From NCBI RefSeq assembly GCF_947495275.1, contig NZ_CANLYL010000012.1, positions 62,001 through 126,000 on the forward strand: a DNA stretch of 64,000 bases, in the 5' to 3' direction. The number at the start of each line of letters is the position of its first letter. Positions within the stretch are counted from its first letter, which is position 1. Of the stretch, positions 32,145 through 35,323 are shown piece by piece. The translations under genes and the position numbers were made by a program. Origin of the DNA: an uncultured Roseobacter sp. GTDB taxonomy: Bacteria; Pseudomonadota; Alphaproteobacteria; Rhodobacterales; Rhodobacteraceae. A model generated the notes under the pieces. It saw only the letters and a program-made list of their open reading frames with translations, did no database searches and was not told where the DNA came from.

Positions 32145-32741
32145 ATGGCTCGCACGGCAGGATCACATTCAGGCACAACCGGCCCCAGGGTGCGCGATGC
32201 GGCGATGACGCTTTTTGCGCGTCACGGTTTTGCGGCGGTCTCAATGCGGCAGATTGCAAGCGAAGTGGGCGTGCAGGTTGGTGCGCTTTACAATTACACA
32301 CCTGACAAGCAAACACTGCTGTATGATCTGATGCGTGGACATTTGGATGCTTTGCTGGAGGCATTTACGGATGACCCGACAAGGAAGCCCGAAGAGCGCC
32401 TGCGCAGCTTTGTGCAATTCCACATTCAGTTTCATCATGAGCGCCCAGATGCCGTTTTCATCGCATATATGGAATTGCGAAACTTGACGCCGGAAAATTT
32501 CTCCCGGATCGAAATCCTGCGAAAGACCTATGAAGACCGGTTAGAGGCCATTTTGCATGCAGGTGTTGCTTCAGGAGACTTTGATGTTCCTGACACGAAA
32601 ATCGCAACGCTTGCGGTTATTGCGATGTTGACGGGCGTAAACACGTGGTTTCGCGCAGGCGGTCGCCTTTCGCTGAAAGACGTTGAAGGGCAATACTGGC
32701 AAATGGTGCGAAAGGCGGTTCTGGCGCAGCGCCGTGATTGA
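32145..32741 (+). CDS. TetR/AcrR-family transcriptional regulator
   Basis: A 198-residue repressor. The N-terminal helix-turn-helix is typical of TetR: RDAAMTLFARHGFAAVSMRQ, then IASEVGVQVGALYNYTPDKQ. The C-terminal ligand domain (about 80-198) is helical, with HIQFHHERPDAVFIAYMELR, like fatty-acid or CoA-ester-responsive members. A palindrome directly upstream suggests autoregulation. No target operon is adjacent apart from the lipoprotein gene divergent to it and the small membrane protein downstream. The effector is unknown. Confidence 0.88.
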   Translation: MARTAGSHSGTTGPRVRDAAMTLFARHGFAAVSMRQIASEVGVQVGALYNYTPDKQTLLYDLMRGHLDALLEAFTDDPTRKPEERLRSFVQFHIQFHHERPDAVFIAYMELRNLTPENFSRIEILRKTYEDRLEAILHAGVASGDFDVPDTKIATLAVIAMLTGVNTWFRAGGRLSLKDVEGQYWQMVRKAVLAQRRD

Positions 32742-32874
32742 AGGGTGTCAGCGCCCCTCATTTAATCAACATATGTGATGCATTACATGATATATATTCG
32801 TTTTAAGAATTTGTTGCCTGCCTCTATATCGAGGGGTGTCCGCTTATCGGGCAAGTTTCGAAGAGGATGATCAC

Positions 32875-33099
32875 ATGGTTTATGAAACGACTATACCGGG
32901 CAAAAGACTGGCCAATCGTGCGATAGCAAATTTCTCGCAGGCCGTTCTCTTGGTTGGGTTTGGGGTTCTGTTTGGATTGATTCTGGCTCAGGCACCGGAG
33001 CGGTCCGCTTCAGCGAATTGGGAAGACGGGCTACAGGTTGACCCCATTCATGGCGAAGACTGGCACGGAAATGTGCGGCGATCTTCTTCACCGCGGTGA
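32875..33099 (+). CDS. Small single-pass membrane protein of unknown function
   Basis: A 74-residue protein with one hydrophobic helix (AVLLVGFGVLFGLILAQA, about 23-40) between a basic N-terminus and a polar C-terminus. GAAGAGGATGA precedes the ATG, favouring it over an upstream start. The 3' end overlaps the converging reductive-dehalogenase-like gene by 12 bases. No family was recognised. It could be a membrane partner of a neighbour, but its opposite orientation makes that weak. Confidence 0.5.
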   Translation: MVYETTIPGKRLANRAIANFSQAVLLVGFGVLFGLILAQAPERSASANWEDGLQVDPIHGEDWHGNVRRSSSPR

Positions 33100-34341
33100 C
33101 GACTGATTTGCCCACCAATCATTCGGTTTCTTGCGGCCGCCGCGTTTTCGGTCCAGCCAAAGCGCGACGGCCCGTAAGGGGGATAAGGCGATCCGAAGCC
33201 AGAGCCGGTTTTGCCATTTGCTGAAATCTCGGTTGAACGGGCAGACACGCATGCAAATGGCGCAATCCGATGCGAGTTTGGCCCAGAACCCAAAACACTT
33301 CTCGGCATCAGACGTCCACTTTCGCACGCCCTTTAATGCAGAAATATTGGCTCCTCCGATCTCGGGCGCGCCAAATGGCAATGCTTTAACGGGGCAGGCT
33401 TCCGCGCATTTGGTGCAGATATCGCAAAAGGCCCTAACGCCCAAAGGACGCGGCGTGTCGTGTTCCAGGGGGAGTGAGGTGAATATCTTGGAAAAGCGCA
33501 AGCGGGGGCCATACTCAGGGCTGATCACCAGTTGATTGCGGGCATATTCGCCCAGCCCGGCCTTGAGAGCATAGGGAATGACCAATGCGGTATCGTTCAT
33601 CGAAGGGACGGCCTCGTACCCCAGGTTGCGGATATAGGCGGCGATCTGCATCACAGTCGCGGCCTCCTGACTATAGGCGCGCCCGGTGGCAGCCCCTGCC
33701 AGAGCTGCTGGATATGTGGCAACCAGATCGGCGTCCATTTCGTGTCCCAGAACGATGACGGATGTGATGCCTTCGGGAAGATCATTCGGGACCTCAGACA
33801 TGTCTCTGACGTCCACACGGGCGCTGTAGTGCCAACGCGGGTCGATCGCGGTGATGCCGCAAAGGTCAGCTTTAAAGAACTTCGATATGCGTTTGATCTC
33901 TTTTGACATTTCTGCCGGGCTATCAACATTGACCTTCTCGGGCGCCACAGGCGTGTCCGAGCTGATGGGGGCTTGAAACCCTTCCCGGCGACCGTCCTGT
34001 GCATGTCGGTCGGTCATGATGTCAGAAATCAGCCACGAGGCATTTCTCAACGCAAAATCACGCTGGCCAAATCCGTCTCCGCGCCTTGGAATGGCTTCCA
34101 TCCGATAGGAGGCAAAAAATGCATCTGTCTGTTTGGTCTGAACCGACGAATCCCAAAAAGCGCGCGTAAAGATGTCGTTTTTCTGCGCAAACGGTTCGAA
34201 GGCATCGGTGGTTTCGATGCCGGCCTGAGCATCAGAGGCGTGTGGCGTTGAAGTATCCTGCATGCTGGCAAGCCTACGCAGCGGATTGAATGCGTCAATG
34301 TCTAAGGTCGCAAACAGACGCGACTCAGAGACATCGGCCAC
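33088..34341 (-). CDS. Reductive-dehalogenase-like (RdhA) iron-sulfur protein
   Basis: A 417-residue protein matching the RdhA core: an N-terminal RDFALRNASWLISD, the block GYEAVPSMNDTALVIPYALK, and two [4Fe-4S] binding motifs, Cys306-309-312-316 and Cys349-360-363-367. Known RdhA enzymes use cobalamin to remove halogen from organohalides. Tyr223, before a helix ending AAYIRNLGY, sits where the catalytic Tyr of PceA-type enzymes lies. There is no twin-arginine signal, membrane-anchor gene or fused ferredoxin reductase, so it is probably a cytoplasmic, non-respiratory enzyme needing a separate electron donor. QueG was considered, but the second cluster spacing (KCFGFW, then C10 later) is RdhA-type. 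The start is GTG; an ATG at residue 27 is an alternative. Confidence 0.72.
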   Translation of the reverse strand: MADVSESRLFATLDIDAFNPLRRLASMQDTSTPHASDAQAGIETTDAFEPFAQKNDIFTRAFWDSSVQTKQTDAFFASYRMEAIPRRGDGFGQRDFALRNASWLISDIMTDRHAQDGRREGFQAPISSDTPVAPEKVNVDSPAEMSKEIKRISKFFKADLCGITAIDPRWHYSARVDVRDMSEVPNDLPEGITSVIVLGHEMDADLVATYPAALAGAATGRAYSQEAATVMQIAAYIRNLGYEAVPSMNDTALVIPYALKAGLGEYARNQLVISPEYGPRLRFSKIFTSLPLEHDTPRPLGVRAFCDICTKCAEACPVKALPFGAPEIGGANISALKGVRKWTSDAEKCFGFWAKLASDCAICMRVCPFNRDFSKWQNRLWLRIALSPLRAVALWLDRKRGGRKKPNDWWANQSSPR

Positions 34342-34378: not shown

Positions 34379-35323
34379 ATGAAGGTAGGTTTCATTGGCT
34401 TGGGAAACGTTGGTGGCAAGCTCTGCGGCTCCCTCATCCGCAACAAGATCGATGTGCAGGTGCATGATTTAAATGCGGAATTCGTGTCAGAAAAGGTGGC
34501 CCTCGGCGCGCAGGACGGGCAAAGCCCCAGTCAGATGATGCAGGCCTGTGATGCGGTAATCACCTGCTTGCCGACGCCCGCTGCCTCTTCAGCCGTTCTT
34601 GAAGAAATGTTGCCACATGTGCAGCCGGGCAAGATCTGGATGGAAATGTCGACGACTGATGCTGCCGAGGTCAAACGTCTCGCAGCCCGTGTTGCTGAAC
34701 GCGGTGGATCAGCGGTGGATTGTCCGGTTTCCGGGGGGTGTCACCGCGCCGACACCGGCAATATTTCCATCTACGCCGGCTGTGATCGCGCGACCTTTGA
34801 TCGTGTTTTGCCGATCCTAACCTGCATGGGGCGGCGTATTCTGCACGTGGGCGATGTCGGAAATTCCAGCGTTCTCAAAGTGATGACCAATTATCTTGCC
34901 ACCGCGAACCTGCTGACACTATGCGAGGCCCTGACGGTCATGAAGGCCGCCGGAATGGATTTGGGCATGACATACGAGGCGATTGCCATGTCTTCGGGCA
35001 CGTCGTTTGTGCACGAAACGGAGAGCCAACTGATCCTCTCGGGCTCTCGTGACGTGAACTTCACTATGGATCTCGTGCAAAAGGATATCGGTCTGTTCCA
35101 AAAACTGGCGGATACCTTTGACGTGCCTTTGGAAATTTCGCCTTTGCTCATCGAAATGATGTCCGACGGGCAACGCAGATATGGGGATCGCGCGCAATCC
35201 AATCGCATGATCGAACGATTGGAAGAAGCGACAGGCCTAAGCGTTCTCGCACCGGGCTTTCCTCAGGAACTCGTGGATGACGAGCCGGAAGAGCCCGGAT
35301 ACGAGGTGACACCTAATCGCTAG
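34379..35323 (+). CDS. Beta-hydroxyacid dehydrogenase (3-hydroxyisobutyrate dehydrogenase family)
   Basis: A 314-residue NAD(P)-dependent dehydrogenase. The nucleotide motif [15 protein letters not shown] is at the N-terminus, CPVSGG binds substrate, and the catalytic lysine lies in [11 protein letters not shown]. Family members oxidise 3-hydroxyisobutyrate, or reduce tartronate semialdehyde or similar. The ATG at 34379 begins the Rossmann fold directly; a start 117 bases upstream would run into the divergent neighbour. It diverges from the RdhA-like gene with 37 bases between, so the two may share control, but a joint pathway is not established. Its stop overlaps the converging serS end by 4 bases. 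Confidence 0.88.

Follow-up and report, generated by a model that had tools for sequence, protein, structure and literature searches.

A probable single-domain reductive dehalogenase gene in a Roseobacter genome and its relationship to a characterised marine debrominase

The analysed stretch of DNA (the window, 64 kb in length) carries on its minus strand a reductive dehalogenase (rdhA)-type frame that occupies positions 33088-34341 and comprises 417 codons when read from a GTG start. Translation probably begins at codon 27, an ATG at 34263, since the frames of several orthologues are closed upstream in its vicinity: the frame at locus L001 starts at query residue 26, that at L003 one residue ahead of residue 25, and many at about residues 21-28 of the long frame. 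The gene would thus extend from 34263 to 33088 (minus strand, stop codon at 33088-33090) and encode about 391 aa, while the upstream extension to the GTG (34264-34341, minus strand) is probably untranslated. Both [4Fe-4S] cysteine sets named in the preliminary description were located at the expected residues of the long frame, i.e. C306, C309, C312 and C316 (residues 306-319; 33385-33426, minus strand) and C349, C360, C363 and C367 (residues 349-368; 33238-33297, minus strand), as was its candidate catalytic residue Tyr223, here regarded as the candidate proton donor (codon at 33673-33675, minus strand; all three coordinate pairs by arithmetic), which corresponds to chain position 246 of PceA (4uqu) and to Y426 of NpRdhA. 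The blocks ALRNASW and NDTALVIPYALK, also claimed there, are both present in the frame. Orthologues were collected from 80 loci with named records (out of 95 found), whose products display 62-83% identity to the window protein, and in an alignment of the window protein with 42 of these the eight cysteines together with T219, Y223, N249, R282 and W353 are invariant (43/43 sequences). Given this identity across 80 loci and a best PDB match of 1.2e-45, the frame is, as judged by sequence comparison, not a chance ORF.

Divergently oriented to rdhA lies a gene for an oxidoreductase of the 3-hydroxyisobutyrate dehydrogenase family (34379-35323, plus strand; PF03446 and PF14833), whose role is not shown, while a convergent gene for a TetR-family regulator (32145-32741, plus strand; PF00440 and PF17932), regarded as a neighbour only, is followed by a homoserine dehydrogenase gene and, next to the latter, by frames that we take to be GlpX and RecJ. 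A tblastn survey of the 80 loci identified homoserine dehydrogenase in 48, the TetR gene in 46, GlpX in 42, the 3-hydroxyisobutyrate dehydrogenase-family gene and RecJ in 41 each, and a pirin gene in 37. None of the 11 tested neighbours was identified in 21 of the loci, short contigs among them (e.g. L028, 3.8 kb), and within these 21 no cluster except rdhA recurred in more than four loci, as assessed by an ORF calling that is greedy and noisy in GC-rich DNA and missed rdhA in 2 of the 21; the counts quoted are those of tblastn. The neighbour block is therefore read as inherited gene order rather than as a functional unit, and since no neighbour is common to all contexts, the survey indicates that no dedicated electron donor is encoded alongside rdhA. 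An operon partner in the role of electron donor was considered and dismissed, the block being mostly housekeeping in nature and missing from those 21 loci. Where present (L036:9323-10249 and 36 further loci), the pirin gene follows rdhA in the same orientation, separated from it by a variable distance; none was found anywhere in the 64-kb window. Additionally, the end of rdhA is overlapped on the other strand by an ORF of 87 aa (32836-33099, plus strand) in which a single hydrophobic stretch is visible by eye; 13 further loci have similar sequences (36-58% identity) close to rdhA, and some of these loci probably represent the same species twice. Plasmid carriage and recent acquisition of foreign DNA were likewise explored and discarded: among 72,556 plasmid records a single one, a Sulfurospirillum plasmid, matched at E 1e-20 (34.8% identity) and none carried an orthologue, and the GC content of rdhA (0.565) and its GC3 (0.63) match the window (0.570) and the six neighbours (GC3 0.55-0.70), respectively.

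Assignment of the protein to a family was evaluated by profile searches. The NCBIfam reductive dehalogenase model TIGR02486 scored 163.2 bits with the 417-aa frame, just over its cut-off of 160.35, while the QueG model TIGR00276 scored 48.9 bits, far under its cut-off of 200. The ferredoxin domain models Fer4_16 (37.5 bits) and Fer4_7 (32.1 bits) exceeded their own cut-offs, as expected for the cluster region, and neither these nor QueG scored better than the reductive dehalogenase model TIGR02486; a better score of either would, according to the preliminary description, have refuted its RdhA assignment. The Pfam model it had recommended, PF13486, reached 18.7 bits over residues 196-292, below the cut-off of 24.3; this shortfall counts against a clean Pfam call, and RdhA membership rests on the other tests and on the tested relative described below. 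Both [4Fe-4S] cysteine sets are accompanied in the window protein by the candidate catalytic tyrosine with an arginine or lysine, in this case Arg282. Sequence and fold comparisons placed the same proteins in the same order: phmmer against the PDB retrieved the dehalogenase 8q4h first, followed by PceA 4uqu (1.5e-43), NpRdhA 4ras (2.4e-28) and QueG (2.9e-10), and Foldseek, applied to an AlphaFold model, returned 8q4h and PceA first (from 2.6e-21 on, this value being that of 8q4h, TMq 0.66), then NpRdhA (best 4.7e-13) and QueG (best 5.7e-5). The model, computed without cofactor from the 43-sequence alignment, is mediocre (mean pLDDT 69.5, pTM 0.77, with low confidence around the clusters), yet it is predicted to adopt the class III cobalamin core fold, which is in line with the cobalamin-enzyme-like structure that had been anticipated. 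An epoxyqueuosine reductase (QueG) paralogue would have this fold in common and would account for the 48.9 bits; however, that score lies far under the QueG cut-off and below the TIGR02486 score, position 282 is Arg as in PceA rather than the Phe of a QueG-like frame, and the genome encodes that separate frame elsewhere (361 aa, C3:449368, 29% identity; called QueG-like from length and motif), making such a paralogue exceedingly improbable.

The closest point of reference for a reductive dehalogenase of this kind is Ros_A3X954 of Roseobacter sp. MED193, a purified debrominase published in 2026 and, in PMC13101508, described as having no Tat signal. Locus L036 derives from the same strain, and translation from its ATG at frame index 142 yields 395 aa, with the motifs located at 283 and 337; because strain and motif positions agree with those published (283-294 and 337-345, PMC13101508), L036 very probably encodes Ros_A3X954. 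The L036 protein is 74.4% identical to the window protein across 391 columns, and both are single-domain RdhAs lacking a Tat signal and carrying the motifs CDICTKCA.ACP and CAICMRVCP. They differ in their surroundings: a pirin gene immediately follows at L036 but is absent from the window, and no counterpart of the window's divergent dehydrogenase was found in the 8 kb covered on that side of L036. In addition, the host of Ros_A3X954 is a different species from the window organism. According to PMC13101508, the enzyme contains 8.06 mol Fe, 5.64 mol S and 0.11 mol Co per mol protein and converts 2,6-dibromophenol to 2-bromophenol with a kcat of 1.1 per s and a KM of 71 uM. Its substrate screen as given there covered six organohalides only, of which one was converted, at 11% cobalt occupancy, and the enzyme is stated to be highly sensitive to oxygen, with loss of activity, the data for which are not displayed in that source. 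The same source cites Ng and Silver (2024) for A0A2T7UTL8 of Pararhodobacter aggregans, which is 72.2% identical to Ros_A3X954 and acts on 2,4,6-triiodophenol. Cobalamin binding and dehalogenase activity have thus been shown for a 74% identical relative (PMC13101508). The notion that a non-fused, Tat-less type was undescribed is overtaken by this publication, and the literature matches listed contain no further description of the type. Conversely, marine halogenated aromatics, put forward as a possible target, gain support by analogy from the turnover of 2,6-dibromophenol (PMC13101508).

PceA of Sulfurospirillum multivorans (4uqu) and the 8q4h dehalogenase represent the best sequence and fold matches of the window protein in the PDB. 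The phmmer alignment with 4uqu is ungapped at an offset of 23, such that T219, Y223, N249, R282 and W353 face the same letters at 242, 246, 272, 305 and 376. Across the pocket positions T219, G220, Y223, R282 and W353, PceA has T, A, Y, R and W, while NpRdhA has S422, M423, Y, K488 and R552; by these residues the pocket of the window protein follows PceA. Both PceA and 8q4h are respiratory, the latter being titled a membrane-bound complex, unlike the window protein, which has neither a Tat-like signal nor an adjacent RdhB. The catabolic enzymes NpRdhA, BhbA and JtRdhA dehalogenate ortho-halogenated phenols and, in PMC10463259, are described as lacking Tat; they thus resemble the window protein in this respect and in the shared tyrosine. 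Catabolic RdhAs are characterised there by a vestigial second cobalamin domain and, in most cases, a fused reductase (PMC10463259), and the window protein has neither: its 391 aa fit one core only, the frame stops after the cysteine sets, and no recurrent ferredoxin neighbour was found beside rdhA in the 80 loci. In NpRdhA, the aligned core spans 346-615 of the 704-aa chain, the first half of which shows no significant match to the window protein (i-E 43). The proposed distinction from both respiratory and fused catabolic types consequently stands for the window protein, but not the use of NpRdhA as an example of the fused type, since NpRdhA belongs to a clade without a reductase domain according to PMC10463259.

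The relationships among these proteins were explored in a tree of 56 rows, built from the core region only and including four respiratory-type rows. The window protein belongs to a 13-row clade together with L036, whose motifs it shares (support 100/99), and this clade lies inside a set of 23 single-domain proteins (99/97). The 23 rows group with 8q4h (93/77), 4uqu (95/86) and L137 (95/83). A separate group (100/99) comprises the NpRdhA-like and fused proteins and also takes in L125 (93/81) despite its respiratory-type label; L125 and L137 were labelled from length and position. L079 and L080, labelled as orthologues at 62-63% identity, group with three other single-domain rows (91/80) outside the set of 13. 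Long branches were observed for QueG, L125, L137 and both PceA rows. Forcing a single cytoplasmic clade, which was named after the tree had been seen, gave a tree 21.5 log units worse with a p-AU of 0.0642, and is thus not rejected at 5%. Pocket residues and tree favour PceA-like over NpRdhA-like ancestry, and a separate respiratory-type ancestry is no more than favoured because of this p-AU value, the four respiratory-type rows and the several long branches.

Proximity to PceA in tree and pocket could be taken to indicate an enzyme of organohalide respiration, exported or linked to the membrane through an unlinked RdhB. The features at the locus argue against this, and they agree with the statements of the preliminary description that a Tat signal and an RdhB anchor gene are absent. 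The sole RR pair within the first 80 residues (22-23) is not followed by a hydrophobic stretch on inspection of the sequence and precedes the likely start at codon 27. Furthermore, no same-strand membrane-like ORF adjoins the gene after rdhA at this locus; the only candidate for an RdhB or other small partner beside the gene, and its sole small membrane-like ORF, is the 87-aa ORF on the opposite strand, which was rejected. The combination of Tat signal and RdhB partner that typifies respiratory RdhAs is thus missing at the window locus, and the published relative is described without Tat and as active when purified from E. coli (PMC13101508). We therefore consider a respiratory role very unlikely.

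Very probably, the window protein is a cobamide-dependent reductive dehalogenase with a single domain, which resides in soluble form in the cytoplasm and cleaves bromine (or iodine) from the ortho position of halophenols, its substrates probably being natural marine compounds; the marine life of the window organism is deduced from its named relatives. We infer the activity, location, electron donor and natural substrate of the window copy along the following lines. As in the family at large, the two [4Fe-4S] clusters would pass electrons singly to base-off cobalamin, the reduced cobalt would attack at the halogen, and Tyr223, helped by Arg282, would supply a proton, so that halide and a less halogenated phenol would be released, the latter of which could enter ordinary ring degradation. 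As no partner gene accompanies rdhA, its product would most likely draw electrons from an NAD(P)H reductase by way of a ferredoxin or flavodoxin that serves the cell in general. Parts for such a general supply exist, given that the window genome has 10 ferredoxin-like matches (none above the FdxA cut-off), eight matches to a ferredoxin-reductase-type NAD domain (all above cut-off) and CobN above cut-off, the last of which also makes cobalamin synthesis in this organism plausible.

Alternatively, an enzyme with the RdhA fold might catalyse a different natural reaction, for example another C-O, C-N or epoxide reduction, with debromination in vitro as a side activity. That the protein is highly conserved among roseobacters (62-83% identity across the 80 loci, some of them titled Planktomarina) and that no aromatic-degradation gene was seen among the recurrent neighbours in these loci would be compatible with this, as would the oxygen sensitivity reported for Ros_A3X954 in PMC13101508. 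On the other hand, a catalytic efficiency (kcat/KM) of 1.5e4 per M per s with 2,6-dibromophenol at 11% cobalt is not obviously that of a side activity (values from the same source), and the patchy occurrence of the gene even within the genus fits an accessory catabolic trait, which renders a non-dehalogenating reaction improbable. Roseobacters are presumed to be aerobic bacteria. The oxygen sensitivity of the relative thus counts against the dehalogenase reading as well, and activity of the window protein in vivo is not proven.

With respect to distribution, matches of 81-82% identity were identified in 5 of 10 other genomes of the window's genus, and matches of at least 60% identity in 25 of 149 genomes of a family sample, the window's own included (a hand count from the listing, with G113, G116 and G155 partial or broken). 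All 10 other genus genomes and the window's own also showed a match in a frame whose 1,073-1,106 aa correspond to the size of fused RdhAs. The rdhA gene is thus an accessory trait that frequently co-occurs with the fused-length one. Being closely related to a characterised marine debrominase, the window protein represents a known kind of enzyme rather than a new system and may be annotated as a debrominating, cytoplasmic reductive dehalogenase. The analysis extends this tested type to many marine bacteria and suggests that no dedicated electron-transfer genes accompany it, thereby making testable in culturable roseobacters how electrons are fed to the enzyme and how an oxygen-inactivated enzyme serves presumed aerobes. 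More speculatively, the single-domain cytoplasmic RdhAs of marine Alphaproteobacteria might have arisen independently, as a second origin of dehalogenases in the cytoplasm, in which a respiratory PceA-type enzyme lost its Tat export and RdhB, kept the PceA pocket, drew on general ferredoxin and came to act in low-oxygen niches of surface-ocean aerobes in natural bromophenol cycling, a scenario that we hold to be possible but somewhat doubtful.

Two further observations concern other RdhA-like proteins. The window genome encodes a second RdhA of the fused type (1,089 aa; C2:115,378-118,647, equivalent to L094:7379-10648) with the cysteine motifs and a C-terminal reductase-like part, close to frames whose sequences suggest a TRAP transporter and a GMC-type oxidoreductase. 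Additionally, a third RdhA-like group (L109, L111-L115, L122-L124 and L148) consists of frames of 310-442 aa that score 86-120 bits with TIGR02486, below its cut-off; all 10 members retain the Tyr and the Arg, and all 10 are missing the Pro of the GPR motif.
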